Source: Oscillospiraceae bacterium
Lineage (GTDB): Bacteria > Bacillota > Clostridia > Oscillospirales > Ruminococcaceae
Assembly (NCBI GenBank): GCA_017427265.1
Contig: JAFRTG010000027.1
Location: forward strand, 248,001 to 312,000
DNA: 64,000 nucleotides
Direction of reading: 5' to 3'
This document shows positions 44,697 through 59,327 of this stretch, in pieces. Each line of letters begins with the position of its first letter. Positions within the stretch are counted from its first letter, which is position 1. The translations under genes and the position numbers were made by a program. Under the pieces are notes generated by a model. That model had not been told where the DNA came from, ran no database searches, and saw only the letters and a list, made by a program, of their open reading frames with translations.

Positions 44697-45131
44697 TTAG
44701 ATTGCATAGACGCCGCGTGATTCAAATTCATCGCACTGCGCAAGCAGTTCTGCCAGTGTCAGACTGTCCATATACTCGCGCATATTGCGGTTGATTTTGT
44801 CCCACAGACAGAATTTGAGATTCATGCGGATGCCGTCCTCTGAATCAAGCTCCGAGGAATCCGCAAGAATGCTGCTGTCCAGTGCGTTCAGCACTTCCGT
44901 GATGGTAATGCTGGAAGCAGCCTGCGAAAGAGAATAGCCGCCGTTTTTTCCTTTTGCCGCGTGAATCAGATTCGACCGGCGAAGCTGAAGCAGGATCTGT
45001 TCCAGATATTTCTGTGATATATTCTGACGCCTTGCAATTTCAGAGGTTACGGCTTTTTTGCCCTGCTCGTGCTGAAGCGCAATGTCTGCGATCGCAGCGA
45101 GACCGTACTCTGCTTTCGTTGTAAATCTCAT
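44697..45131 (-). CDS. Rrf2-family transcriptional regulator
   Basis: A 144-residue winged-helix protein: 'MRFTTKAEYGLAAIADIALQ', 'EIARRQNISQKYLEQILLQL' and wing 'LIHAAKGKNGGYSLSQ'. Only one cysteine (FCLWDK) lies in the usual Fe-S loop region, so the three-Cys IscR cluster site is absent. This points to the cluster-free branch that includes the cysteine-metabolism regulator CymR. It lies 44 bases after the aminotransferase and may be in that operon. A candidate controller of the shared promoter motif in this region; that is inference. Confidence 0.85.
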   Translation of the reverse strand: MRFTTKAEYGLAAIADIALQHEQGKKAVTSEIARRQNISQKYLEQILLQLRRSNLIHAAKGKNGGYSLSQAASSITITEVLNALDSSILADSSELDSEDGIRMNLKFCLWDKINRNMREYMDSLTLAELLAQCDEFESRGVYAI

Positions 45132-45175
45132 TTGCTGCCTCCTTTTAGAATCATTGATGCCGACTTCTGCTATAT

Positions 45176-46342
45176 TTATGCGCGGGGCATTTTGGCGCGG
45201 ATTGCGCTCAGGCGTTCGAGCGCCTCGTTCAGTGTCTCATTTTTCTTCGCAAAATGCAGCCGGATATAGCGGTTTTCCGGCTCCTTGAAGAAGCTCGAAC
45301 CCGGCACTGCGCCGACGCCGACATGCTCTGCGAGCTTTTCGCAGAAATCAAGGTCGCTGGCATAGCCGTATTCCGAAACATCAAGCAGAATATAGTATGC
45401 GCCCTCCGGCACGGTATGCGAAATGCCGATGCGATCAAGTCCCGCAAGGAACAGATCCCGCTTTTCGGTATATTCCGCCTGCAGACCGCGGTAATAGTCG
45501 TCGCCGAATTTCAGGCCGGTGACGGCAGCCTCCTGCAAGGGCGCTGCTGCACCGACTGTCAGGAAGTCGTGCACCTTTTTCACGGTGTCGATGATCTCCG
45601 GCGGCGCAATGACGTAGCCCAGACGCCAGCCTGTGATCGAATAGGTCTTGGAAAGCGACGAGCAGGAGATTGTGCGCTCCCACATGCCCGGCAGCGACGC
45701 CATATAGGTATGCGTGTGCGGCGCATAGAGGATGTGCTCATAGACCTCGTCCGTGATGACAAAGGTGTCGTATTTCTTTGCAAAATCAGCGATAATCAGC
45801 AGCTCGTCGCGGGTAAATACCTTGCCGCAGGGATTGGACGGGTTGCAGAGAATCAGGGCCTTCGGATGCTGCTTGAACGCAGCTTCGAGGACATCTGCAT
45901 CAAAGGTGAAGGCCGGCGGAATCAGCGGCACATAGATCGGCTCTGCGCCGGAAAGAATCGTATCGGCACCGTAATTCTCATAGAACGGCGAGAACACAAT
46001 CACCTTGTCGCCGGGGTTCGTGACGCTCATCATGGCGGCCATCATGGCTTCCGTGCTGCCGCAGGTCACGACAATCTCGCCGTTCGGGTCGATCGGTCTG
46101 CCCATGAAATGCGACTGCTTTTCAGCGAGTGCCTCGCGGAAATTCTGAGCGCCCCATGTGATCGAATACTGGTGAAAATCTTCCTTTGTCACTTCTGCAA
46201 GGCGGTCGAGGATCGCCTTCGGCGGATCGAAATCGGGAAAGCCCTGCGAGAGATTGACTGCGCCGAACTGATTGGAAATGCGCGTCATCCTGCGAATTAC
46301 GGAGTCTGTAAAATTCGCGGTTCTGCTTGATAATGTTGGCAT
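45176..46342 (-). CDS. Class I/II PLP-dependent aminotransferase
   Basis: A 388-residue fold-type I aminotransferase: 'LSQGFPDFDPP', 'CGSTEAMMAAMM', 'CNPSNPCGKVFTRDEL', 'VITDEVYEHILY', PLP-lysine motif 'SSLSKTYSITGWRLGY', and 'YIRLHFAKK'. It resembles the aspartate/kynurenine/aromatic aminotransferase group. Together with the upstream ligase and 2-oxoacid oxidoreductase it would interconvert a 2-oxoacid and its amino acid. It has its own promoter inside the end of the ligase gene, with a large inverted repeat at the transcript start. Confidence 0.88.
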   Translation of the reverse strand: MPTLSSRTANFTDSVIRRMTRISNQFGAVNLSQGFPDFDPPKAILDRLAEVTKEDFHQYSITWGAQNFREALAEKQSHFMGRPIDPNGEIVVTCGSTEAMMAAMMSVTNPGDKVIVFSPFYENYGADTILSGAEPIYVPLIPPAFTFDADVLEAAFKQHPKALILCNPSNPCGKVFTRDELLIIADFAKKYDTFVITDEVYEHILYAPHTHTYMASLPGMWERTISCSSLSKTYSITGWRLGYVIAPPEIIDTVKKVHDFLTVGAAAPLQEAAVTGLKFGDDYYRGLQAEYTEKRDLFLAGLDRIGISHTVPEGAYYILLDVSEYGYASDLDFCEKLAEHVGVGAVPGSSFFKEPENRYIRLHFAKKNETLNEALERLSAIRAKMPRA

Positions 46343-46361
46343 GTTGCCCTCCTAAAAACAT

Positions 46362-46389
46362 GGTGTACCGGGTTTGCACCCGATACACC
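46362..46389. promoter_or_regulatory. 12-bp-arm inverted repeat at the aminotransferase transcript start
   Basis: GGTGTACCGGGT-4-ACCCGATACACC: 12-bp arms with one mismatch, beginning 2 bases downstream of the -10 box. It could be an operator or a 5' UTR hairpin; there is no T-run. Confidence 0.55.
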
Positions 46390-46390
46390 C

Positions 46391-46419
46391 ATTATACAAC
46401 AATCAGATCGTATAGTCAA
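46391..46419 (-). promoter_or_regulatory. Promoter of the aminotransferase gene
   Basis: Minus strand TTGACT, 17-base spacer, TATAAT; the -35 half overlaps the last codons of the ligase gene. Confidence 0.75.
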
Positions 46420-47743
46420 GCTTGCGCTCGTCAATGATGCGCTTGGACTTGTGCTCGGAACGGGTATTCAGACCGCCGTCCGGATGCACGATGACACGCG
46501 CAGGCTTGACGCCGATTCTGGCCTTGAGTGCTGCGGAGATCTCAGCAGCAACCGTCTCGTCGTCCTTCGGGTTATCTGCATTCTTTTCGATCTCGACCGC
46601 GTATTTGTTTGTGAAATCCTTTTCAAAGATGCGGATCAGATATTCGCCGGTGATATCATGCTGCTCACGGATGACCGCTTCAATGTCGCTCGGGAACACA
46701 TTGACGGCGGAGACGATGAACATATCGTCCTTTCTGCCGAGAATGTGGATTCTGCCGTGGGTTCTGCCGCACTTGCACGGTGTCTGGTCGATGCGGCCGA
46801 TGTCGCCGGTGCGGAAGCGGATCAGCGGTCTTGCGTGCTTGCGCAGCGTGGTAAAGACCAGCTCACCGGTCTCGCCGGGCGGCAGGATTTCGCCGGTGTG
46901 GAGGTCAACGGTCTCGACGAGAATGTGGTTCTCAGCGATGTGCAGGCCGTCGTGGTATTCGCATTGTGCCGCGCAGGCGCCGAAGATATCGGAAAGACCG
47001 TAGAAGTCAAAGACCTCTGCGCCCCAGATGTCCTCGATGGCCTTTCTGGTTGCGTCAATCGAACCGCCGAGCTCACCGGCCACAATGATCTTCTTGATGT
47101 TGAAATCCTTCTTCGGATCGTAGCCGGATTTCAGTGCCTTCTCACCGAGCTGCCATGCGTAGGAGGGGGAGGTCCAGATGACGGTCGGCTGATAGGTTTT
47201 CAGGATGAACAGCAGGCGTTCGCTCGGAAGCGTACCGCCCCAGATGCACAGTGCGCCGAGGTTCTGTGCGCCGATGACGTCCGGGCCGCCGACATACAGA
47301 GAGAAGTTCAGCGCGTGCACATAGCGGTCATTCGGTCTCATGCCGATCTGCCAGAACCAGCGGGATTCCGTATCCTGGAATTCGTCGAAGTCCTTCTTGG
47401 TGAACGGGCTCATGGTCGGCACACCGGTCGAACCGGACGATGTGGAAATAAAGACCACATCCTCTTCCGGAACGGCTGCGAGCTCACCGAGGAACGAGCC
47501 GACGCCCTGCGTATCACGCTGGGTTTTCTTGTTGATGAACGGGAACTTCTGAAGATCCGAAAGCTGCTTGATATCCGACGGCTTCACGCCTGCTTCGTCA
47601 AACGAGCGCTTGTAATACGGTGCATGATCGTATGCGAACAGCACGATCTCCTGCAGGTCGGCAAGCTGCCGCTTTTCAAGCTCTTCACGGGGGAGCGTTT
47701 CGAGCTCCTCGTTCCAGTATTTGCTGTTAATATCTCTGCCCAT
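46403..47743 (-). CDS. paaK: Phenylacetate-CoA ligase family protein
   Basis: A 446-residue AMP-forming acyl-CoA ligase of the PaaK type: 'LQEIVLFAYDHAPYYKRSFD', P-loop 'STSSGSTGVPT', 'DFYGLSDIFG', 'LVFTTLRKHARPLIRFRTGD', 'HILGRKDDMFIVSAVNVFPS'. It activates phenylacetate or related aryl acids. It lies downstream of a 2-oxoacid:ferredoxin oxidoreductase, which can reductively carboxylate aryl-acetyl-CoA to the arylpyruvate. AGGAGG precedes the ATG and a TTGGAC-18-TATAAT promoter lies upstream. Confidence 0.85.
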   Translation of the reverse strand: MGRDINSKYWNEELETLPREELEKRQLADLQEIVLFAYDHAPYYKRSFDEAGVKPSDIKQLSDLQKFPFINKKTQRDTQGVGSFLGELAAVPEEDVVFISTSSGSTGVPTMSPFTKKDFDEFQDTESRWFWQIGMRPNDRYVHALNFSLYVGGPDVIGAQNLGALCIWGGTLPSERLLFILKTYQPTVIWTSPSYAWQLGEKALKSGYDPKKDFNIKKIIVAGELGGSIDATRKAIEDIWGAEVFDFYGLSDIFGACAAQCEYHDGLHIAENHILVETVDLHTGEILPPGETGELVFTTLRKHARPLIRFRTGDIGRIDQTPCKCGRTHGRIHILGRKDDMFIVSAVNVFPSDIEAVIREQHDITGEYLIRIFEKDFTNKYAVEIEKNADNPKDDETVAAEISAALKARIGVKPARVIVHPDGGLNTRSEHKSKRIIDERKLDYTI

Positions 47744-47795
47744 TGTTTTTATCCTCCTAATATATCGAGTAATTCTATCGGATTGGTATGCATTT

Positions 47796-47825
47796 ATTAT
47801 ACACGGTTTGACGGCATTTGTCCAA
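47796..47825 (-). promoter_or_regulatory. Promoter of paaK with GTATTGGACAAA motif
   Basis: Minus strand TTGGAC, 18-base spacer, TATAAT, with GTATTGGACAAA across the -35 box and GCATACCAATCCGATAG after the -10. The first motif recurs at 50749 and 59463, the second in part at 50749 and 56216. Confidence 0.75.
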
Positions 47826-47854
47826 TACCGGCATTTTATAATGAGCGATAGAAT

Positions 47855-48760
47855 TTATTGATAAGTAAAGTTCTTTTCAATGAATGCCCACTTCTTGTCG
47901 CGGGATTCAATGACTGTCTTGATATCGTCAAGATCGAGGTGTTTGAAGCGTCCCTGTTTTTTCAGGTATGCTTCGACGCTGGTAAAGTCCTTCGGCTTAT
48001 GATTCAGCGTAAATTCGCCGTTTTCGTATTCCGCAAGATACCAGAGGCCGCAGTCCACGACTTCCTTTGCGATCTCGACCGTTTCATCCGGCGCGATGCC
48101 CCAGCCGGTCGGACAGGGCGCGATCACATGGATATATTTTGTACCCTTGATTCTGGAAGCCTTTTCGACCTTTTTGATGAAATCCGGCAGGTAACCGACG
48201 CTTGCTGTTGCCGCATAGGGAATATCATGCGCGGCTGCAATCTCAAACATATTCTTTTTCGGGCGCAGATTGCCGTGGATATTCGCACCGGCCGGCGTGG
48301 TTGTTGTTCTTGCACCGAACGGCGTCAGGCCGCTCTTCTGGATGCCGGTGTTCATATAGGCTTCGTTGTCGTAGCAGATATAGATGATGTTGTCATTGCG
48401 GTCGATTGCGCCGGACAGTGCCTGAATGCCGATGTCCGCCGTGCCGCCGTCGCCTGCAAAGCCGACTGCTGTGAAATCGCTGTAGCCCTTTGCACGCAGA
48501 CCGGTCTCAATACCGGTCAGCATGGATGCCGTGCCGGCAAAGGTCGAAATGATCGAGTTGTTCGAGAAGCAGAGCTGCGGAAAATTGAAACCGACCGCCG
48601 ACATACATCCTGCCGGCAGCACAGAAACCGCATTCTGCCCAAGCACCTTGAGTGCTGCCCGGACGGCAAGGCTGCCGCCGCATCCTGCACAGGCCTTGTG
48701 CCCGTAGAAATATTCGTCGCGGGAAAGCCGTTCAGCTGTTGGATTCGCCATTGCCGTCAC
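47855..48760 (-). CDS. 2-oxoacid:ferredoxin oxidoreductase, beta subunit
   Basis: A 301-residue TPP-binding subunit: 'GHKACAGCGGSLAVRAALKV' (CxxC cluster ligands), TPP motif 'GDGGTADIGIQALSGAIDRN' with 'YICYDNEAYMNTG', and 'APCPTGW'. It is the last gene of the gamma-delta-alpha-beta operon and overlaps alpha by 29 bases. It could act on pyruvate, branched-chain or arylpyruvate; the neighbouring aryl-CoA ligase favours aryl or branched acids. Confidence 0.88.
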   Translation of the reverse strand: MTAMANPTAERLSRDEYFYGHKACAGCGGSLAVRAALKVLGQNAVSVLPAGCMSAVGFNFPQLCFSNNSIISTFAGTASMLTGIETGLRAKGYSDFTAVGFAGDGGTADIGIQALSGAIDRNDNIIYICYDNEAYMNTGIQKSGLTPFGARTTTTPAGANIHGNLRPKKNMFEIAAAHDIPYAATASVGYLPDFIKKVEKASRIKGTKYIHVIAPCPTGWGIAPDETVEIAKEVVDCGLWYLAEYENGEFTLNHKPKDFTSVEAYLKKQGRFKHLDLDDIKTVIESRDKKWAFIEKNFTYQ

Positions 48761-49913
48761 CTCCGATTCCGATAAAGTTTACATGTTCTGTGCCGCTCCG
48801 GATATCTGCAAAAATCTGCGCGATATCGCCGGCGGAGATGTTTCTGCCGCCCAAGCCTCCGATGAAATTATAGCCCGGAAGCTGAATTCCCGCTTTTTGC
48901 AGCGCGGAATTGACATTTGTAAAGACCGTGCCCTCATTGCCGAAGGAAATATCCTTTTCCAGCACGCCGAATGCCTTTGCACTTTTAAGTGCTGCGGCGA
49001 TTTCCTCATTCGGGAACGGCCGCATATAGCGGATGCGCACAACGCCCGCTTTGATGCCCTGCGCACGCAGTTTGTCGGCCGTTTCGCGGCAGAGTCCTGC
49101 AATGCTGCCGAGCGTCACGAGGATATAGTCTGCATCCTCTGCGCGGTAGCTGTCCAGCAGACCGGAATACCGTCTGCCGAAGATCTCCGCAAATGCGTCC
49201 TCGGTTTCGCGGACAGCTTCTTTTGCTGCAAGCATTCCTTCATGCGCCTTATATTTGAAAATATAGTTGGTATCCGGCCCGGCCGAGAACGCCATGTTTT
49301 TCGGGTTGTCGAAATCAATGCGGTTTTCGGTCACATAGGGCGGCAGGAATCTGTCTGCCTGCTTTTGCTCCGGAATCTCAACTGTTTCATATGTATGCGT
49401 GAGCACAAAGCCGTCCAGATTGACCATGACCGGCGTGGAAACACGGCTGTCCTCTGCGATGCGCCAGCTCATCAGCGCAAGATCAAGCGCCTCCTGTGCG
49501 TTTTCCGCATAGACCTGAATCCAGCCGCTGTCCAGCTGCGAAAGACTGTCGCGCTGGTCGCCGTAGATGTTCCACGGCAGCGCGGTCGAACGGTCTGCGT
49601 TCATCATGACGATCGGGAACCGTCCGCCGGATGCGTAATACAGACATTCTGCCATGTAAAGCAGTCCCTGCGAGGAGGTTGCCGTGAAGGCTCTTGCGCC
49701 GGCCGCACTTGCGCCGATCGCGCAGGAGAGTGCCGAGTGCTCCGATTCCACATGGATAAACTCCGATTTCAGGCTGCCGTCCTCGACCATCTCCGAGAGC
49801 CGTTCCACAACGATTGTCTGCGGGGTGATCGGATATGCAGAGATGACATCGGGCTTTGCAAGGCGGATGCCCTCGGCAAATGCCTCATTGCCGGATAAAA
49901 ACCGTTTGCTCAT
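48732..49913 (-). CDS. 2-oxoacid:ferredoxin oxidoreductase, alpha subunit
   Basis: A 393-residue subunit: 'GNEAFAEGIRLAKPDVISAY', 'PITPQT', 'FIHVESEHSALSCAIGASAA', 'ATSSQGLLYMAECLYYASG', 'NIYGDQRDSLSQLDSGWIQ'. It carries the pyrimidine-binding domain I and domain II of PFOR-like enzymes. It overlaps delta by 4 bases. The loop NIYGDQRD differs from the NIxxDH-type loop I remember for pyruvate enzymes, so pyruvate specificity should not be assumed. Confidence 0.88.
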   Translation of the reverse strand: MSKRFLSGNEAFAEGIRLAKPDVISAYPITPQTIVVERLSEMVEDGSLKSEFIHVESEHSALSCAIGASAAGARAFTATSSQGLLYMAECLYYASGGRFPIVMMNADRSTALPWNIYGDQRDSLSQLDSGWIQVYAENAQEALDLALMSWRIAEDSRVSTPVMVNLDGFVLTHTYETVEIPEQKQADRFLPPYVTENRIDFDNPKNMAFSAGPDTNYIFKYKAHEGMLAAKEAVRETEDAFAEIFGRRYSGLLDSYRAEDADYILVTLGSIAGLCRETADKLRAQGIKAGVVRIRYMRPFPNEEIAAALKSAKAFGVLEKDISFGNEGTVFTNVNSALQKAGIQLPGYNFIGGLGGRNISAGDIAQIFADIRSGTEHVNFIGIGGDGNGESNS

Positions 49914-50203
49914 TTGTGCTCTGCCTCCGTTCCGATTGCGCCGATTTTACAGATTTTAGCGCAGATGCCGCATCCCTTGCAGAAATCATAGTCAATGACG
50001 GCCTTGCCGTTTTGAATCGCAATCACGCCGTCCGGACAGTATAAATAGCACTGCTCGCAGCCGATACATCGCCCTGTGTCAATCACCGGCCGGATACTGC
50101 GCCAGCCGCTGTTGACGGTTACCAGATAGCCCGCTTCAAATGCGGTTGCCTCCGGGATTTCCGCTGCGGAAAATGTTTTCTTTTCTCTGAGGAAGGGTTT
50201 CAT
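49910..50203 (-). CDS. 2-oxoacid:ferredoxin oxidoreductase, delta (ferredoxin) subunit
   Basis: A 97-residue 2[4Fe-4S] protein with 'CIGCEQCYLYCPDGV' and 'CKGCGICAKICKIGAI' (two CxxCxxCxxxC motifs) that passes electrons between the TPP core and soluble ferredoxin. It overlaps both neighbours (ATGA-type junctions). Confidence 0.92.
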   Translation of the reverse strand: MKPFLREKKTFSAAEIPEATAFEAGYLVTVNSGWRSIRPVIDTGRCIGCEQCYLYCPDGVIAIQNGKAVIDYDFCKGCGICAKICKIGAIGTEAEHK

Positions 50204-50715
50204 TTCTGCACCGCCTCTCTGGCCAGCTTCACAGCGCCGATGTTGCGCGCCTGAATTTTCTGCGGCATATAGCCCTCGATTGCGCTGACCGCCTGTTCTT
50301 CCGTGATGTAACCCGACAGCGCCGACACGATGCCGAGCATGACGGTGTTGACCGTCGGCAGCCGGAATTCCGCTGCAATGGCTTCGCCGTCAAAGGGGAA
50401 GGCACCGGGAATCGGCAGCTTCGAGTTGACGATGATTCTGCCGCCGGGCTTCAGCTGTGCCGAAAGGTCTGGCGTGTACAGCGTATCATCGAGCACGACG
50501 ATAAAATCTGCCTGCTCGGTCTGACTGCGGTCAAGCACCGGCTTTTCATCGAGCTTTGTAAATGCCCTGACCGGTGCACCGCGCCGTTCCGGACCGAAGG
50601 ACGGGAATGCCAGCGCATACTGTGCATCATTGTCTGCGGTGTAGGCCGCGCCGAACAGCTTTGCTGCCGTAAAGGCGCCCTGGCCGCCGCGTCCGAGCCA
50701 AAGAATTTCTTTCAT
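50200..50715 (-). CDS. 2-oxoacid:ferredoxin oxidoreductase, gamma subunit
   Basis: A 171-residue subunit with 'LGRGGQGAFTAAKLFGAAY', 'SFGPERRGAPVRAFTKLDE' and 'NTVMLGIVSALSG', standard for the gamma domain III. First gene of the operon, with AGGAGAATGAGATT before the ATG and a TTGGAC promoter about 35 bases upstream. Confidence 0.9.
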   Translation of the reverse strand: MKEILWLGRGGQGAFTAAKLFGAAYTADNDAQYALAFPSFGPERRGAPVRAFTKLDEKPVLDRSQTEQADFIVVLDDTLYTPDLSAQLKPGGRIIVNSKLPIPGAFPFDGEAIAAEFRLPTVNTVMLGIVSALSGYITEEQAVSAIEGYMPQKIQARNIGAVKLAREAVQK

Positions 50716-50794: not shown

Positions 50795-51718
50795 TCAGTT
50801 ATCAGTTTTTTCGATACCGAGATACCGTTTCAGCTCCTCAATGTAGATCGTTCCGGCCTTGCTGCGCAGTGTCTTTTTCAGCGTGACATAGCCGATCTCC
50901 ATTGCGTCCTCGTCCTCGGTTTCAAACGGCACGGCGATATAGTCGCTGCCGTTGAGCTCCTCGCAGATGATGCCGGAGCACAGCGTATAGCCGTTCAGAC
51001 CGATCATCAGATTGAGCATCGTAGCGCGGTCGTTCGCCTTGATCGTGCGCGGATATTCCGCTGTGCTCAGAATCTCCTCTGCATAGTAGAACGAGCTGTT
51101 TGCGCCCTGCTCAAAGGAAAGGCAGGGGTAATCCGCAAGATCGGCCAGGGTGATATTTTTCTGCGCTGCGAGCGGATGCCCCTTCCAGAGATACACAAAC
51201 GGGCGGCATTTTGTCTGCGGCGTGAATTCCAGATTGTTTGTGTGGAGCAGCTTGGTGATCGCCTTGCGGTTGAAGTCGTTGAGATACAGAATGCCGATCT
51301 CGCTGCGAAGATTCGCCACATCGCTGATGATCTCGGCTGTTTTGGTCTCGCGGATTGCAAACTCATATTTTGCCGTATCAAACCGCTTGACCATCTCCAC
51401 GAACGCCTTGACCGCAAAGGAATAGTGCTGCGTCGAGACACCGAATTTCTTTTTGATATTGCCCCTGGCGTTGTATTTTTCCGTCAGGATATCAAACTGT
51501 CCGACAACCTGATGCGCATACTGCAAAAACTCCGCGCCGTCATTTGTGACGGTGACACCGCGGCCGCTGCGGTTGAAAATCAGGATGCCGGTTTCCTTTT
51601 CCAACTCCTGCACAGAAGCCGTCAGGGAAGGCTGCGAGACATAAAGCTGTTCCGCCGCCTTGTTCATGGAGCCGGTTTCTGCAATAATCAGTGCATATTT
51701 CAGCTGCTGCAAAGTCAT
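50795..51718 (-). CDS. LysR-family transcriptional regulator
   Basis: A 307-residue regulator with N-terminal HTH 'QQLKYALIIAETGSMNKAAE', 'LYVSQPSLTASVQELEKETG' and a LysR substrate-binding domain. It is 15 bases after cysK in the sulfur operon, so it is probably made with those enzymes and may sense O-acetylserine or a related effector like CysR/CysB/CmbR regulators. The next operon's promoter begins just beyond its stop. Confidence 0.9.
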   Translation of the reverse strand: MTLQQLKYALIIAETGSMNKAAEQLYVSQPSLTASVQELEKETGILIFNRSGRGVTVTNDGAEFLQYAHQVVGQFDILTEKYNARGNIKKKFGVSTQHYSFAVKAFVEMVKRFDTAKYEFAIRETKTAEIISDVANLRSEIGILYLNDFNRKAITKLLHTNNLEFTPQTKCRPFVYLWKGHPLAAQKNITLADLADYPCLSFEQGANSSFYYAEEILSTAEYPRTIKANDRATMLNLMIGLNGYTLCSGIICEELNGSDYIAVPFETEDEDAMEIGYVTLKKTLRSKAGTIYIEELKRYLGIEKTDN

Positions 51719-51733
51719 GCTCTCACCTCATTA

Positions 51734-52642
51734 TCAGAATAATCCGGTACTGAAATAACGGTCGCCGCGGTCGGGGAATACCGTCACGATATTGCCGCTT
51801 TGGACGCGCTCAGTCAGTTTCAGAACCGCAGCCATCGCCGCACCCGACGATGAACCTGCAAAAATGCCCTCTGTTTTCGCAAGCAGACGGGCGGTTTCAA
51901 AGGCTTCCCCGTCGTTCACCTTGATGACATCATCAACCAGTGACATATCCATTGTATCTGCGATGAAATCATTGCCGATGCCCTCGATGTTGTAGTCGCT
52001 GTGTTCGCCGCCGCCCATGGTCGAGCCGACCGGATCGGCAAGGATGCCGCGGATCGCCGGGTTCTGCTCCTTCAGATAGCGCAGAATGCCGGAGTAGGTT
52101 CCGCCGCTGCCCGCGCCTGCGACAACGTAGTCGATTTTGCCGTCCAGATCTTTGTAGATCTCCCTGCCGGTTGTTTCGTAGTGGGCGAGGGGATTGCTCC
52201 GGTTTTTGAACTGCTCCAGCGAGATTGAGCCGGGGATTTCCGCCTTGATCTGCTCTGCCTTTTCGACGGCGCCGAGCATGCCCTTTTCACGCGGCGTATT
52301 GATGACCTCTGCACCGAGCGCGCGCATCAAAGCCTGCTTTTCTGCTGAAAACTTTGTCGGTACGACAAAAATGATGCGGTAGCCGCGGTTCAGCGCCGCG
52401 AATGCAATGCCGAGCCCCGTATTGCCTGCGGTCGCTTCGACAATCGTGCCGCCGGCTTTGAGCAGGCCGCGCTGTTCGGCGTCGTTGACCATATAAAGTC
52501 CGGTTCTGTCCTTGACACTGCCGGACGGGTTCCAGAGCTCCAGCTTTGCAAAGACATTCACGCCCTTATTTTTCACGATGTTTCCGAGCCTGACCAGCGG
52601 CGTATGACCGATCAGCGCCTGCATCGAATCATAATACTGCAT
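51734..52642 (-). CDS. cysK: Cysteine synthase (O-acetylserine sulfhydrylase)
   Basis: A 302-residue fold-type II PLP enzyme: 'IGHTPLVRLGNI', PLP lysine in 'ELWNPSGSVKDRTGLYM', 'EATAGNTGLGIAFAALNRGY', 'GAGSGGTYSGI', 'GSSSGAAMAA'. The motif SGNTG is TAGNTG here. It makes cysteine from O-acetylserine and sulfide, although some relatives are cystathionine beta-synthases, which would also suit a neighbourhood with AhcY and a cystathionine enzyme. The start at 52642 has GGAGGGG upstream; the 12-residue extension was rejected. Confidence 0.85.
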   Translation of the reverse strand: MQYYDSMQALIGHTPLVRLGNIVKNKGVNVFAKLELWNPSGSVKDRTGLYMVNDAEQRGLLKAGGTIVEATAGNTGLGIAFAALNRGYRIIFVVPTKFSAEKQALMRALGAEVINTPREKGMLGAVEKAEQIKAEIPGSISLEQFKNRSNPLAHYETTGREIYKDLDGKIDYVVAGAGSGGTYSGILRYLKEQNPAIRGILADPVGSTMGGGEHSDYNIEGIGNDFIADTMDMSLVDDVIKVNDGEAFETARLLAKTEGIFAGSSSGAAMAAVLKLTERVQSGNIVTVFPDRGDRYFSTGLF

Positions 52643-53885
52643 GTGATTCCCCTCCATAGAGGTATGCACGCTGTTCATCCGTCAGCGTATCAATTTCAAT
52701 CTGCATACTTGCGAGCTTCTGCCGTGCGACGGCTTCGTCCACTTCGCGCGGCACATTGTTCAGCACGGATGTAACCGCATCGCGGTGTGCAATCAGCCAT
52801 TCGGCACTCCGCGCCTGAATGGCAAAGCTCATATCCATGATCTCCGCCGGGTGACCGTCACCGGCCGCCAGATTGACCAGTCTGCCCTCTGCAATGACGT
52901 AGACCGTCACGCCATTCGGCAGCGTGTACCCGGTGATATTGTTCCTTGCTTCAAACGATTTCACCGCGAGCCTTCTGAGCCCTGCCATATCAACTTCGAC
53001 ATCGAAATGGCCTGCATTGCTGAGAATCGCGCCCTCATGCATTCTGAGGAAGCTCTTTTCGGTGATGACATGGCTGCATCCCGTTACTGTGACGAAGAAG
53101 TCACCGAGCGGTGCGGCATCCTCCATTTTCATGACCGTGAAGCCGTCCATGACCGCCTCGATTGCCTTGACCGGGTCAACCTCGGTGACGATGACCTTTG
53201 CACCCAGCCCCTTTGCGCGCATCGCCGCGCCTTTTCCGCACCAGCCGTAGCCCGCAATGACAACGGTCTTGCCTGCGACAATCAGATTTGTCGTGCGGTT
53301 GATGCCGTCCCAGACGGACTGGCCTGTGCCGTAGCGGTTGTCAAACAGATGCTTGGAGTCTGCATCATTGACCAGCATCATCGGGAATTTCAGTTCATTG
53401 GCCGCTGCCATTGCCTTGAGCCGCAGAATGCCGGTCGTGGTTTCTTCGCAGCCTCCGATGACATTTGCAAGATACTGCGGGTATTCCTTGTGAATCAGCG
53501 TGACAAGGTCGCTGCCGTCGTCAATGATAAAGTGCGGCTTTGCCTCGATCACACGGCGCGTATGCGCTTCGTATTCTTCCGGCGTAACGCCGTGCCATGC
53601 ATAGACATTCAGGCTGCTGTGCACAAGCGCTGCTGCAATATCGTCCTGCGTCGAAAGGGGATTGGAGCCGGTGATATACATCTCCGCGCCGCCTGCCGCA
53701 AGAACACGGCAGAGATATGCGGTCTTTGCTTCCAGATGAATGGACAGCGCAATGCGCTTGCCTGCGAACGGCTTTGTCTTTGCAAATTCAGCTTCGATGC
53801 CGCGCAGCAGCGGCATATTTCCTTTTACCCACTGTATTTTCCGTTCGCCGCTTTCCCAGAGCGCAATATCCCTGATTTCAGACAT
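52629..53885 (-). CDS. ahcY: Adenosylhomocysteinase
   Basis: A 418-residue enzyme hydrolysing S-adenosylhomocysteine to homocysteine and adenosine. Motifs: 'SIHLEAKTAYLCRVLAAGGA', 'GSNPLSTQDD', 'EETTTGILRL', 'VNDADSKHLFDNRYGTGQS', NAD-binding 'VIAGYGWCGKGAAMRAKGLG', 'SNAGHFDVEVD'. The start MSEIRD at 53885 overlaps the cystathionine gene stop; the extension to 53945 was rejected. It supplies homocysteine to the neighbouring transsulfuration enzymes and recycles the product of the methyltransferase at 55053. Confidence 0.93.
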   Translation of the reverse strand: MSEIRDIALWESGERKIQWVKGNMPLLRGIEAEFAKTKPFAGKRIALSIHLEAKTAYLCRVLAAGGAEMYITGSNPLSTQDDIAAALVHSSLNVYAWHGVTPEEYEAHTRRVIEAKPHFIIDDGSDLVTLIHKEYPQYLANVIGGCEETTTGILRLKAMAAANELKFPMMLVNDADSKHLFDNRYGTGQSVWDGINRTTNLIVAGKTVVIAGYGWCGKGAAMRAKGLGAKVIVTEVDPVKAIEAVMDGFTVMKMEDAAPLGDFFVTVTGCSHVITEKSFLRMHEGAILSNAGHFDVEVDMAGLRRLAVKSFEARNNITGYTLPNGVTVYVIAEGRLVNLAAGDGHPAEIMDMSFAIQARSAEWLIAHRDAVTSVLNNVPREVDEAVARQKLASMQIEIDTLTDEQRAYLYGGESHAVL

Positions 53886-55041
53886 TCGGCGCCGCCTTTC
53901 CGATGGCCTGCTCCAGATCGGCAAGAATATCCGCAATGTTTTCAATGCCGGTTGACAGGCGGATCAGTCCGTCCGTGATGCCGACCTTTTTGCGGATATC
54001 GGCCGGAATCGAAGCGTGCGTCATCGTCGCGGGGTGGCAGACCAGCGACTCCACGCCGCCGAGACTTTCCGCAAGCATAATGAGCTGCAGACTCTCGAAA
54101 AATCTGTTGATATCATAGCCCTCGTGCAGTTCAAAGGAGATCATGACGCCGCCGTTTTTCGCCTGCTTTTTGTTGATCTCATAGCCCTGTGCATCCGGCA
54201 GACCGGGATAATAAACCGTTTTGACAGCCGGATGGTTTTTGAGATATTCCGCGGCCTTCTGCGCGTTTTCCACATGTCTGTCCATGCGGACGGCCAGCGT
54301 CTTGATGCCGCGAATCAGCAGGAACGAGTCAAACGGGCCGAGCACGCCGCCGGTCGAATTCTGGATAAACGCGATTTTCTGTGCGAGCTCTTTGCTGTTC
54401 ACAACGGCAAGTCCCGCGACGACATCGCTGTGGCCGCCGAGGTATTTTGTTGCGCTGTGCACGACGATATCTGCGCCGAGTTCGAGCGGCTTCTGCAGAT
54501 ACGGCGTCATGAAGGTGTTGTCCACGATGACGAGCAGTCCGTGCTTATGCGAAATCTCTGCAACGCCTGCAATATCCGTGACCGTCATCAGCGGGTTGGC
54601 CGGGCTTTCGATGATGACCGCCTTCACATCATCGGTGATCTGCGTTTCATATTTTGCAAGGTTTGCGGTATCCGCGATGGTATATGTGATGCCGAAATGG
54701 TTGAATACCTTATCGAGCACGCGGAAGGTTCCGCCGTAGACATTGCTGGAAATCAGTACGCGGTCGCCGCTGTTCAGCAGACTAAGAACCGCCGTAATTG
54801 CAGCCATGCCGGAGCCGAATGCAAAGCCTGCATAGCCGCCCTCCAGTTCTGCGATCAGCTTTTCAAGAGCCTCACGGGTCGGGTTGCCGGTGCGGGAATA
54901 TTCGTATCCGCGCATTTTTCCGAGTCCGTCCTGCTGATAGGTCGATGTCTGATAGATCGGCACATTGACTGCGCCGGTGTGGATATCGCTGGAAATGCCG
55001 CCGTGAATGAGTGCGGTCTCTGTATGTTCAAATCTGCTCAT
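53878..55041 (-). CDS. Cystathionine gamma-synthase / beta-lyase family PLP enzyme
   Basis: A 387-residue Cys/Met-metabolism PLP enzyme: 'TALIHGGISSDIHTGAVNVP', 'YEYSRTGNPTREALEKLIAE', 'AFGSGMAAITAVLSLL', PLP lysine in 'VVHSATKYLGGHSDVVAG', 'ESLGGVESLVCHPATMTHAS'. Sequence alone does not separate gamma-synthase, gamma-lyase and beta-lyase. With AhcY and CysK-like neighbours, conversion between homocysteine, cystathionine and cysteine is likely. It overlaps ahcY by 8 bases. Confidence 0.9.
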   Translation of the reverse strand: MSRFEHTETALIHGGISSDIHTGAVNVPIYQTSTYQQDGLGKMRGYEYSRTGNPTREALEKLIAELEGGYAGFAFGSGMAAITAVLSLLNSGDRVLISSNVYGGTFRVLDKVFNHFGITYTIADTANLAKYETQITDDVKAVIIESPANPLMTVTDIAGVAEISHKHGLLVIVDNTFMTPYLQKPLELGADIVVHSATKYLGGHSDVVAGLAVVNSKELAQKIAFIQNSTGGVLGPFDSFLLIRGIKTLAVRMDRHVENAQKAAEYLKNHPAVKTVYYPGLPDAQGYEINKKQAKNGGVMISFELHEGYDINRFFESLQLIMLAESLGGVESLVCHPATMTHASIPADIRKKVGITDGLIRLSTGIENIADILADLEQAIGKAAPNV

Positions 55042-55052
55042 GATGATTCTCC

Positions 55053-55952
55053 TTATTCAAAGTTATAGCCTGCGGTATAGGTCGCCGAAAGCAGGCTGAC
55101 ATTTTCAAATGCTTTCATCCGGTCGGCGCGTCCGGCAAAATATTCTGCCTGTACCTTTTCCGGCGGCAGATAGGTGTCGATCTGGAAGCCCAGCGCATAG
55201 AGTGCGCGGGATACCTCATTGTAATCATAGCCGCCGCGCATGTGCTCGCCGAGCGAAGCGGTAATCTGTTCAAGCCGGTATACGCGCTCCGGAAAGTTTC
55301 CGGTTTTCATCGGATAGTCAAATACCACGGCACTGCCCGGCACGGACAGCTCCGCGATCTGTCTGAGCGTATCCGAGAACACATCCAGCGTGAGGTAATA
55401 GGTCACGCCGAGCATGCTGAAAAACGTCGGCTTCTGCGGATCGAATCCTGCTTTCAGCAGCTGATCTGTCATGCGCTGCTTTTCAAAATCGACCGGCACA
55501 AAATGCACATTCTGCGGAATATTCCATTCCAGCTGCCGGATGCGTTCCAGCTTATAGCGCTGCGTGTCCGGGTGGTCGATCTCGTAGATTTCAATCTCCG
55601 GATTGTCATTGCGGAACAGGAATGTATCCGATCCGGCGCCGCAGATCACATATTGGATTCTGCCGTGTTTTGCAGCAAATTCATGCAGCCGTTTTTCCGC
55701 AAAATGAATGCGGGAAAGCGGGATCGGCGCGAGATATTCGCGGATGATCTGTTCCGTATCCTCCCGCGAATACGGCTTTGCGAGTCCCGTCAGTCCGCGG
55801 CTCACAATATCGTACATTTCGTCATATTCCGCTTTGCCTATGATGTCAAAAGCAAGGTCGTCGTCAAATATTTTGTCTCTGTTATGTATCGCGTGCCACG
55901 CTCTTGCAAAGGCACAGAGCTTTGCGGTCACGCTTTCTCTCTCATCAACCAT
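55053..55952 (-). CDS. SAM-dependent methyltransferase (LCMT/Ppm1-like)
   Basis: A 299-residue protein of the leucine carboxyl methyltransferase-like class: N-terminal 'VTAKLCAFARAWHAIHN' and 'IFDDDLAFDIIG', SAM motif 'YVICGAGSDTFLFRN', 'EIYEIDHPDTQRYKLERIR', 'FFSMLGVTYYLT', 'VVFDYPM'. Bacterial members methylate diverse carboxylates or natural products. As first gene of the sulfur operon, followed by ahcY, its substrate may relate to sulfur metabolism. GGAGG precedes the ATG, right after the leader terminator. Confidence 0.8.
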   Translation of the reverse strand: MVDERESVTAKLCAFARAWHAIHNRDKIFDDDLAFDIIGKAEYDEMYDIVSRGLTGLAKPYSREDTEQIIREYLAPIPLSRIHFAEKRLHEFAAKHGRIQYVICGAGSDTFLFRNDNPEIEIYEIDHPDTQRYKLERIRQLEWNIPQNVHFVPVDFEKQRMTDQLLKAGFDPQKPTFFSMLGVTYYLTLDVFSDTLRQIAELSVPGSAVVFDYPMKTGNFPERVYRLEQITASLGEHMRGGYDYNEVSRALYALGFQIDTYLPPEKVQAEYFAGRADRMKAFENVSLLSATYTAGYNFE

Positions 55953-55968: not shown

Positions 55969-56000
55969 AAAAAAGCGCAGAATGCTCAACCGCACTCTGC
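55969..56000 (-). terminator. Attenuator terminator before the sulfur operon
   Basis: On the minus strand GCAGAGTGC-GGTTGA-GCATTCTGC with GC and six T, ending 17 bases before the first structural gene. It lies 60 bases downstream of the Cys-rich leader ORF, the geometry of a leader-peptide attenuator. Confidence 0.8.
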
Positions 56001-56060
56001 GTATCCATACATGTGAACGACTAGCGTCATGGGTGTTTTCGCTTTCGGAGCGGATCACAC

Positions 56061-56171
56061 TCATGATGTCTGAGAGAGAAGCCGACATCGCCGTTCTGCC
56101 GCGTGTGTTTGAGACATTCGTATATGATTGTTCCGGTAACAGCAACACTGCAGACAGCGCATCATATTCAT
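56061..56171 (-). CDS. Cysteine-rich leader peptide of the sulfur operon
   Basis: A 36-codon ORF beginning 45 bases after a perfect promoter, with AAGGAG 8 bases before the ATG. Codons 5-12 read R-C-L-Q-C-C-C-Y; a further Cys is at codon 29. Its stop overlaps a possible hairpin (CATGAGTGT..ACACCCATG), and an intrinsic terminator follows before the methyltransferase gene. The Cys run suggests that ribosome stalling at Cys codons under cysteine shortage changes leader folding and allows read-through. A different minus-strand frame of 99 codons (55945-56244) crosses the terminator and lacks a ribosome site. The ORF and terminator are seen directly; the mechanism is inferred. Confidence 0.75.
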   Translation of the reverse strand: MNMMRCLQCCCYRNNHIRMSQTHAAERRCRLLSQTS

Positions 56172-56215
56172 GGTGATTTCTCCTTATTCTTATTTTGCCT
56201 ATCGGATATGTATGC

Positions 56216-56244
56216 ATTATAGCACAGGGGATTATAAATGTCAA
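56216..56244 (-). promoter_or_regulatory. Consensus promoter of the sulfur operon
   Basis: Minus strand perfect TTGACA, 17-base spacer, perfect TATAAT. GCATACATATCCGATAGG follows, sharing GCATAC and TCCGATAG with the paaK promoter; possibly an Rrf2/CymR- or LysR-type site. Confidence 0.88.
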
Positions 56245-57383: not shown

Positions 57384-58198
57384 AGGACGACCTCCTCTCC
57401 GCCGATGCGGTCAGCCACATCCTGATACAGCAAAGAGAGCAGACGGTTCCGGAATTTGCCGTACTCGTCAGTCTTGACCAGCTCTGCACGGTTACGCGGG
57501 CGTGCAAACGGCACCTGCACGATCTCGTTGACCGTGCCAGGATGTGCCGTCAGCACCACGATCTTATCCGAGAGCAGGATTGCCTCGTCAATATCGTGTG
57601 TAACGAACACGACCGTTTTGCGCTTGTCCTTGTGGTCACCCTCCCAGAGAGAGAGCAGCAGTTCCTGCAGTGTTACGCGGTTTTTCGCGTCAATTGCGCT
57701 GAACGGCTCGTCCATCAGCAGGATTTCGGTATTCATCGCAAGCGCCCTGGCAATCGCAGCGCGCTGCTGCATACCGCCCGAAAGCTGCGAGGGATATTTT
57801 TTGCCGAATTCCGCAAGGCCGACCTTGCCGAGAAACTCATCCGCAATCTGAAAACGCTCTTTGCGGCTGAGTTCATGCCGTGCCTGCTTGATACCGAACG
57901 CAATGTTGCTGCGCGTGGTCATCCACGGGAACAGCGAATAATGCTGAAATACAACGCCGCGTTCCCGGCCGGTTCCGTGCAGCGGCGCACCGTCGATTTC
58001 AACGCTGCCGCCTGCCGCCTGATACAGTCCTTCCAGAACGCTCAGCAGTGTGGATTTTCCGCATCCGCTCGCGCCGATCACGCTGACAAATTCACCGGCA
58101 CCGACCCCGAAGGATACATCGTGCAGTGCGTTGAATTTTTTGCCGCGCTCGGTATAATCAACCGTGAGATGCTTGATCTCGATCTTATTCGTAGGCAT
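57380..58198 (-). CDS. Sulfonate/taurine-type ABC importer ATPase
   Basis: A 272-residue ATPase of the SsuB/TauB/NrtD class: Walker A 'GASGCGKST' (42-50), Q-loop 'GVVFQHYSLFPWMTTRSNIA', signature 'LSGGMQQR', Walker B 'ILLMDEPFSAIDA', 'VFVTHDIDEAILLSDKIVVL'. The start MPTNKIEI at 58198 overlaps the binding-protein gene by 14 bases; the longer frame to 58321 was rejected. Confidence 0.9.
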   Translation of the reverse strand: MPTNKIEIKHLTVDYTERGKKFNALHDVSFGVGAGEFVSVIGASGCGKSTLLSVLEGLYQAAGGSVEIDGAPLHGTGRERGVVFQHYSLFPWMTTRSNIAFGIKQARHELSRKERFQIADEFLGKVGLAEFGKKYPSQLSGGMQQRAAIARALAMNTEILLMDEPFSAIDAKNRVTLQELLLSLWEGDHKDKRKTVVFVTHDIDEAILLSDKIVVLTAHPGTVNEIVQVPFARPRNRAELVKTDEYGKFRNRLLSLLYQDVADRIGGEEVVL

Positions 58199-59327
58199 TG
58201 AAATGCTCCTCCAATGATTTGTAGATATCATCGGAGCCTTCGGCGAGAATGCTGTCCAGGGCAGTCTTGTAGATTTCGGTATTGTACAGCGGTTCGATGT
58301 CGTAATCTTCTGTATAGCCAAGCTCTACAATGGTATCCTTCAGCGTCAGCGTACCCTTTTTGTCCGGATCGGGACTGGACACGCTGTAACCGCCGTAAAC
58401 CTCCGTTTCGATGAATTCGTCATCAATGTCGATGTACTTTTTCACATCGGCGATCGTCTTTTCGTGATCCTCTTGCGTCAGGTGATATGCCTTGATAAAG
58501 GCGCGTTCCAGTGCGGTGAAGGTGTTCGGATTTGCCTTGACTGCCGCTGTGGACGCGACCTGCCGGCAGCAGGGCTGGTTTTCCAGCGCCTTTTCATGTG
58601 CGCAGTAGTAGACGACCTTGTAGCCCTGTGATTTTGCAAGCGATGCATACGGCGAATAGACCGATGCAGCGTCAATGGTCTGATTGGAGAGTGCCGCGTA
58701 GGCATCCTTCTGGCTGTCGAAGTAGACGATGTTGACTTTGTCCTCGCCCTCGCCGATCTCGATATGGGCATTTTTCAGCAGAATCTGCAGCTCGGCATCC
58801 TGAACAGAATTCTTGACGGATGCAACATTTCTGCCCTTGAGGATTTCGACGCCTTCCTCATCCTTTTCGGCATATTCGGATTTGATGACATAGCCGTGAC
58901 CGTTTGTCATCGCGCCGCCGACGACCGTGACATCATGTCCCTGACTCTGGAAGGTCAGCGTCGGCACGGAGCCGATGAATGCGAGGTCGAGCTTGCCGGA
59001 TTCCAGACCGTTGACGAGCTCGCCTGCGCTGGAAAACTGCGTCAGTGTGACGTTCAGCCCTTCTTCCGTGAAGTAGCCTTCTTCTGCGGCGACAAACGCA
59101 AGCAGATGCGCGGTCGAGTTGAGATAGCCGAGATTGATGTCAGCTTTTTCCGGGACGGCTGTATCGGTGCTGTTGTTTTCAGCCGAATCAGCCGCGAGTG
59201 TTTCGGGTGCCTCTGTCTGCACAGCGCTGTATTCTGCGGACTGTTCAGACGGATTATTCAGTGCGCCGCAGCTTGTCAGAAGTGCAAGCGATACGAGAAC
59301 TGCGGTCAGTCTTATATACTTTTTCAT
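58185..59327 (-). CDS. ABC importer substrate-binding lipoprotein (SsuA-like)
   Basis: A 380-residue lipoprotein with lipobox 'LALLTSCG' (Cys about 20). The NMT1/SsuA-type binding domain has 'DINLGYLNSTAHLLAFVAAE', 'GYFTEEGLNVTLTQFSSAGE', 'LAFIGSVPTLTFQSQGHDVT' and 'NVASVKNSVQDAELQILL'. This family binds sulfonates, taurine, nitrate or pyrimidine precursors. First full gene of the importer operon; a short Cys-ending leader ORF lies 47 bases upstream. Confidence 0.88.
   Translation of the reverse strand: MKKYIRLTAVLVSLALLTSCGALNNPSEQSAEYSAVQTEAPETLAADSAENNSTDTAVPEKADINLGYLNSTAHLLAFVAAEEGYFTEEGLNVTLTQFSSAGELVNGLESGKLDLAFIGSVPTLTFQSQGHDVTVVGGAMTNGHGYVIKSEYAEKDEEGVEILKGRNVASVKNSVQDAELQILLKNAHIEIGEGEDKVNIVYFDSQKDAYAALSNQTIDAASVYSPYASLAKSQGYKVVYYCAHEKALENQPCCRQVASTAAVKANPNTFTALERAFIKAYHLTQEDHEKTIADVKKYIDIDDEFIETEVYGGYSVSSPDPDKKGTLTLKDTIVELGYTEDYDIEPLYNTEIYKTALDSILAEGSDDIYKSLEEHFNAYE

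Follow-up and report, generated by a model that had tools for sequence, protein, structure and literature searches.

A short leader ahead of a sulfur amino-acid operon in an Oscillospiraceae bacterium probably acts as a transcription attenuator of the ribosome-mediated kind, with charged tRNA-Cys as the signal it senses. Comparison of the locus with its relatives shows a leader ORF led by a Shine–Dalgarno sequence (SD) and carrying clustered Cys codons, a predicted leader hairpin and an intrinsic terminator before the operon. Judged from these sequence comparisons, the leader class as a whole is well supported. If the reading is correct, the class would constitute a widespread cysteine-sensing leader system in Firmicutes of the gut and rumen, where a T-box might be expected, and one that matches neither an Rfam family nor an NCBIfam model above cut-off. 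It would also predict a set of enzymes and transporters that gut and rumen bacteria induce under cysteine shortage.

The leader locus and its operon

The window, meaning the whole 64,000-nucleotide stretch of DNA that was analysed, carries the leader and its operon on the reverse strand (Table 1). The initial annotation had described a perfect promoter, a 36-codon ORF with AAGGAG and a C-L-Q-C-C-C run at codons 6–11, a hairpin starting at the ORF stop and an intrinsic terminator with six T, all before a methyltransferase–cystathionine–ahcY–cysK–lysR gene row. Every one of these elements was recovered in the sequence, the gene row by Pfam- and NCBIfam-type matches. Cys occupies codons 6, 9, 10, 11 and 29 of the leader ORF. 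The layout is that of an attenuator: a short, SD-led ORF lies between the promoter and the first gene, its conserved control codons match the amino acid of the operon, and an intrinsic terminator (3:4) precedes the first gene.

Table 1. Features of the leader locus, the sulfur operon and the second uORF (window positions).
Feature	Position	Strand	Basis or remark
Sigma-70-type promoter	56216..56244	−	TTGACA-17-TATAAT, 12/12 consensus; TG ahead of −10 (extended −10)
CCGATAGG block 3′ of −10	56198..56205	−	Invariant columns, 19/19 rows of leader alignment A2
Shine–Dalgarno AAGGAG of leader ORF	56180..56185	−	Sequence
Leader ORF, 36 codons, MNMMRCLQCCCYRNNHIRMSQTHAAERRCRLLSQTS	56061..56171	−	Homologues in relatives
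Control codons Cys 6, 9, 10, 11 (region 1)	56139..56156	−	
Region 2 (CUCAAACACACGCGGC), predicted pairing partner of region 1	56098..56113	−	
GCGATGTCG, codons Arg28-Cys29	56083..56091	−	GCGATGT invariant, 19/19 aligned leaders
Hairpin from codon 36/stop of leader	56027..56066	−	In extra stretch, absent from aligned relatives
Intrinsic terminator	55969..56001	−	Stem 56001–55976 CGCAGAGUGCGGUUGAGCAUUCUGCG, then C and six U
LCM-type SAM-dependent methyltransferase, first gene of operon	55053..55952	−	PF04072, TIGR00027
Cystathionine gamma-lyase/gamma-synthase-type PLP enzyme	53878..55041	−	PF01053 and NCBIfam
Adenosylhomocysteinase (ahcY)	52629..53897	−	NCBIfam above cut-off
cysK-type PALP enzyme	51734..52678	−	PF00291
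LysR-family regulator	50795..51718	−	End of gene row
ssu uORF MNRNPVYLSFSERMRCCL (FSERMRCC type)	59431–59375	−	Before 58185–59327, adjacent sulfonate-type ABC operon

The promoter is common to all 19 collected leaders, with at most one mismatch. The CCGATAGG block, which has no other exact match in the window, is a possible regulator site. More broadly, the promoter surroundings (56264–56198, reverse strand) are strongly conserved among the 19 leaders, with a CCGAATATAG-like block and CCTATTGACA before, and CCGATAGG after, the −10 element. In many of the 19 rows, an ATAG-N7-CTAT palindrome overlaps the −35 element, and we take this palindrome to resemble a LysR or Rrf2/CymR-type site. Past the sulfur operon, positions 44697–50715 (reverse strand) hold 2-oxoacid:ferredoxin oxidoreductase genes, an AMP-binding ligase, an aminotransferase and an Rrf2 gene. 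The product of the latter (44697–45131, reverse strand) scores above the superfamily cut-off for Rrf2-family regulators, while the IscR and CymR models score below cut-off.

At gathering scores, Rfam gave no match anywhere in the window, whether to a SAM riboswitch (S-box) or to any other family, and the T-box model RF00230 did not match at the locus; an Rfam riboswitch or T-box at this place was ruled out on these grounds. The earlier statement that neither a T-box nor an S-box is visible at the locus was thus borne out. T-boxes do occur elsewhere in the genome, with six matches, two of which pass the Rfam cut-off; read from their first residues, the genes that follow are valS-, trpB-, trpE- and aspS-like, plus two others. 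Four leader peptides scanned against NCBIfam gave nothing above cut-off, and a search for a second leader copy in the same genome returned one weak stretch only (E 0.0067).

Conservation of the leader within and beyond the genus

An alignment across related genomes had been suggested as a check on the initial annotation, and its outcome was favourable. The methyltransferase gene is present in 18 of 30 genus genomes and is preceded by a Cys leader in all 18; the terminator and the leader hairpin covary. With its Cys codons conserved and its terminator covarying, the element originally proposed, a Cys-codon leader attenuator, gains support. In 16 of the 18 genomes, the leader profile matches at E 4.3e-10 or better, and the remaining two carry divergent leaders at the equivalent position (MTSVNGKMMMCCCMMNLCNLQIRSAHEKALRCCTESVCTHP and MKREMMCSCMMTNTAALLPDMRIRLWRCCA). 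Against the 12 genus genomes that lack the methyltransferase, the best profile match has E 0.007. The named relatives are Ruminococcus or Oscillospiraceae assemblies, several of them rumen-derived. Loci L002–L014, whose leader peptides are identical to those of named records, were counted once; the L038 row of alignment A1, whose frame continues into the next gene, was trimmed to 35 residues; and no leader is visible in the 147 nt available upstream in L041.

The consensus from 17 leader peptides is MKTMCCMxCCxxxxNRIRMSHTHAAxRRC. In the 12 gap-free leaders of the 19, pN/pS, used descriptively, is 0.57 over codons 2–29, and it is lower in the Cys block (codons 5–10; 0.27) than in the variable codons 11–15 (0.71). 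The overall value and that of codons 5–10 speak for translation of the leader ORF.

Outside the genus, overlapping sets of genomes (295 from the order, 396 from the family and 391 from the class) were searched for the methyltransferase, which was found at E 1e-60 or better in 22 genomes. A Cys-rich uORF precedes the gene in 19 of them, spanning seven families (f1, f2, f24, f35, f42, f51 and f55). In two more genomes (G605 and G644) no leader accompanies the methyltransferase gene, which there seems to lie directly 3′ of another gene, and in the third (G672) the upstream region is ambiguous. The leaders diverge widely, as in MMCACCFYLYNRINR, MMRFVICPCCCCRNNWIFTAEKQLPGNQFIMP, ...NCCCCPCCIDTGG... 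and ...VCRCCAVKHTGG, and many share little except the Cys cluster. They may be regarded as a natural experiment in which attenuators appear to have been rebuilt and the control codons kept.

Terminators were located and folded in 12 of these 19 leaders and read by eye in G746, G410, G591 and G697. In G666 (L209), three leader Cys codons lie inside a terminator-like hairpin, a single-hairpin arrangement, and no clear terminator was seen in the leaders of G037 and G636. Two candidate leader uORFs are present in G601. G081 has, in addition, a Cys leader (MFAVNTLNTCCCCCAYYNC...) and terminator before its cystathionine-lyase gene.

A chance ORF was ruled out by a strict test that required at least three Cys within six codons, an SD and an ORF entirely inside the 400 nt upstream. 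The test was satisfied by 34 of 40 upstream regions (16 of 18 in the genus and 18 of 22 elsewhere) and by 0 of 40 reverse strands; two shuffled sets gave means of 0.30 and 0.29 with a maximum of 2. Five methyltransferases at 33–37% identity were left out of these counts. Three of the five (L135, L136 and L137) have no Cys-cluster leader, apart from a doubtful uORF in L137.

Predicted leader RNA structure and the proposed antiterminator

Across the 19 aligned leaders, the terminator is paired in 98.6% of cells and its covariation was reached by 0 of 500 shuffles; for the leader hairpin, in which the Cys codons lie, the corresponding values are 80.7% and 1 of 500 shuffles. Both structures were taken from row L034, a choice that gives them an advantage over slid versions. 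In the leader hairpin (1:2), the Cys codons pair with codons about 20–29, as is expected of an attenuator.

It is proposed that, when Cys-tRNA is ample, the ribosome passes through the leader, and that the ribosome or the leader hairpin would then keep region 2 off the terminator, causing transcription to stop. When Cys-tRNA is scarce, the ribosome would stall at the Cys codons and cover region 1. Region 2 would then be free to hold the 5′ arm of the terminator, and RNA polymerase could continue into the methyltransferase–lyase–ahcY–cysK genes.

The antiterminator is the weak step of this model, as its predicted pairing has modest support over controls and the model folds conflict in several relatives. 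In close relatives, the segment predicted to compete for the terminator arm comprises codons about 20–25. When folded with a stalled ribosome, 18 of 19 leaders show the terminator arm paired to sequence upstream of it (0.51–0.91). With the ribosome masked on the Cys run, pairing between the arm and region 2 averages 0.59; the other states gave 0.22 without a ribosome, 0.15 with the ribosome at Arg-Cys and 0.21 with the ribosome at the stop (15 testable). The share of region 2 reaches at least 0.5 in the stalled state in only 13 of 19 leaders, and is 0.02 in L044. In several leaders, the arm is occupied without a ribosome or with the ribosome at the stop, where termination is expected. With the ribosome at the stop, for example, region 1 ties up the arm in L040, L035, L031, L045 and L033 (0.45–0.98), and in L043, L092 and L093 region 2 holds the arm at 0.60–0.88 in states that are expected to terminate.

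The GC-rich terminator arms also pair with shuffled letters, giving a mean of 0.65 in the stalled state against an observed mean of 0.73 (Wilcoxon p 0.003, Fisher p 0.015). The duplex energies of the arm have a mean z of −0.95, with 152 of 20000 re-dealt sets equally good. For the antiterminator columns, covariation was reached by 16 of 500 shuffles and the share of paired cells by 71 of 500. Distant leaders contain complementary segments 3′ of the Cys codons, for example an uninterrupted run of 11 pairs in G383 and one of 8 in G297. Among the 13 located distant leaders, a set that excludes L211, pairing exceeds the shuffle mean in 11 with the stall at the first Cys and in 8 with the stall at the last; taken singly, few exceed their shuffles clearly.

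The copy in the window is an exception. Its arm pairing in the stalled state is 0.06, with 188 of 200 shuffles equally good, and the terminator arm finds no partner in any of the four modelled ribosome states. Region 2 of the window copy corresponds to the segment that close relatives are predicted to use as antiterminator, and it pairs weakly with the terminator arm. The leader fold that had been suggested earlier gave a divided answer: the window's own leader yielded no antiterminator and a z of −1.54, which is not unusual, and the relatives gave stalled-state pairing modestly above shuffles. Because the fold of a single leader is unremarkable by itself, the case rests on comparison.

The strongest partner of the window arm is the segment of codons 4–8, which includes TCTGC (−17.1 kcal/mol). 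The initial annotation had named TCTGC at codons 6–8 as the competing segment; it can pair with the arm, yet it would be hidden beneath a ribosome halted at the Cys codons, and it was rejected as the antiterminator. At 260 nt, the window leader is longer than the other 18 (200–243 nt), and it carries an extra stretch with a hairpin between the leader stop and the terminator. Several relatives (e.g. L032, L035 and L040) are predicted to form a different hairpin of smaller size near the leader stop, so a role for this place is conceivable. From the model folds, the window copy may have kept its leader and terminator while its antiterminator was rewired or partly decayed.

A stronger version of this idea, in which the window copy is a decayed attenuator and the operon is governed mainly by promoter control (LysR or Rrf2/CymR-like) with constant partial termination, is unlikely. 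It would fit the lack of a predicted antiterminator in all of the window's states, the longer leader with its extra hairpin, the sequence conservation that surrounds the promoter across the 19 leaders and the lysR gene that closes the gene row. However, the leader ORF, SD, Cys run and terminator of the window are all intact, and kinetic and tertiary effects escape fold programs.

Peptide-based readings, known systems and a second Cys uORF

The invariant end of the leader peptide raises a different reading, nascent-peptide arrest, in which a stall at Arg-Cys near the peptide end, due to the conserved peptide with its Ile-Arg about 11 residues before Arg28-Cys29, would set the terminator. The peptide would perhaps sense cysteine or another thiol. 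Arg28-Cys29 is coded CGA-TGT in all 19 aligned leaders, Ile17 is nearly invariant and codons 16–19 have a pN/pS of 0.22. Furthermore, at 16 of 19 loci the ssu uORF found in this genus terminates in RMRC, with GCGATGT present every time, and Arg-Cys is also seen in 9 of the 19 outside-genus leaders. Over codons 26–29, however, pS (0.10) is lower than pN (0.21; 12 leaders), which points to conservation of nucleotides over peptide, and the other 10 outside-genus leaders keep their Cys clusters without Arg-Cys. Arrest of this kind is distinctly unlikely. Metal- or redox-sensing leader peptides are also known, and the consensus MCCMxCC..HTH..RRC, rich in Cys, Met and His, has metal-binding residues, but sensing of copper or zinc instead of cysteine is very improbable here, given that the operon encodes sulfur amino-acid enzymes, that the part recurring outside the genus is the Cys cluster (e.g. 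MMCACCFYLYNRINR) and that the HTH codons fall in the paired region 2.

The attenuator reading places the leader beside the trp, his and ilv attenuators, with which it shares the SD-led leader ORF, control codons, leader hairpin and intrinsic terminator before a pathway operon. It differs from them in amino acid (cysteine) and host (Clostridia), and an antiterminator is not predicted in the window copy. A pause site in the leader was also considered: E. coli hisL contains GGCGATGTG, presumably its pause region; the bases 3′ of GGCGATGTG are unlike those of the window leader. In Bacilli, His leaders are reported in the accessible part of PMC2965389. A T-box would resemble the present leader in sensing tRNA, in that case uncharged, before amino-acid genes in Firmicutes.

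Cys leaders had been described at the outset as mainly actinobacterial. They are indeed known there, but not exclusively, as the accessible text of PMC8632094 describes uORFC-8-2, a candidate Cys leader with a terminator before cysS in Rhodobacterales. According to the same text, uORFC-8-2 resembles the present leader in its tandem Cys codons, a short uORF in the first stem, a 3′ U run and proposed Cys-tRNA attenuation; it differs in phylum and gene, and its Cys pair usually occupies codons 14–15 rather than forming a cluster near the start. The present leader is set apart from it by operon and host, not by motif score. Polycysteine ORFs of mycobacteria are reportedly called leaderless in the title of Canestrari 2020. 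They are cited as leaderless in the accessible part of PMC13236596 as well. The parts of PMC1262725 that are available describe runs of Cys codons ahead of cysteine operons in Actinobacteria, a likeness to the present leader, and report no conserved terminator hairpins. In contrast, the leader described here is SD-led and has an intrinsic terminator; with its AAGGAG and an ATG 44 nt after the −10 hexamer of the predicted promoter, it falls outside the leaderless mycobacterial class. No Cys leader attenuator in Firmicutes was found in the literature, a search that mostly did not reach subscription papers and is not proof.

A second Cys uORF lies before the adjacent sulfonate-transporter (ssu) operon of the window. 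The genus has 23 places with an ssu solute-binding gene, and the 19 upstream regions examined, from 16 genomes, all contain an ssu-type uORF, with RMRC in 16 and RMRFC or RMRYC in three. A profile built from these uORFs also detects one in G022. No terminator was seen in the upstream regions examined, and the eight of 17 members long enough to scan had no match in NCBIfam. In many loci, a CGCAU-like segment further downstream is complementary to the RMR codons; in 9 of the 17 located loci, a count that leaves out two of the 19, no more than 10 of 200 shuffles matched this pairing.

It is conceivable, though doubtful, that the Clostridia cysteine regulon employs two uORF devices, Cys-cluster attenuators with terminators and terminator-less FSERMRC(C) uORFs, and that the CGA-TGT Arg-Cys of the genus would be a specific cysteine-shortage stall signal beyond codon hunger.

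Two further SERMRC-type uORFs were noted in one other genome, on the reverse strand of the same contig. The first (L192; G003:C13:5921-5865, reverse strand; MKQTPAYLSYSERMYCLLSAF) precedes a small Cys-rich lipoprotein that has ABC genes after it, and the second (L193; G003:C13:21753-21697, reverse strand; MNRIKYYPVSGVRSRCCPPVSAS) precedes a LysR-like frame.
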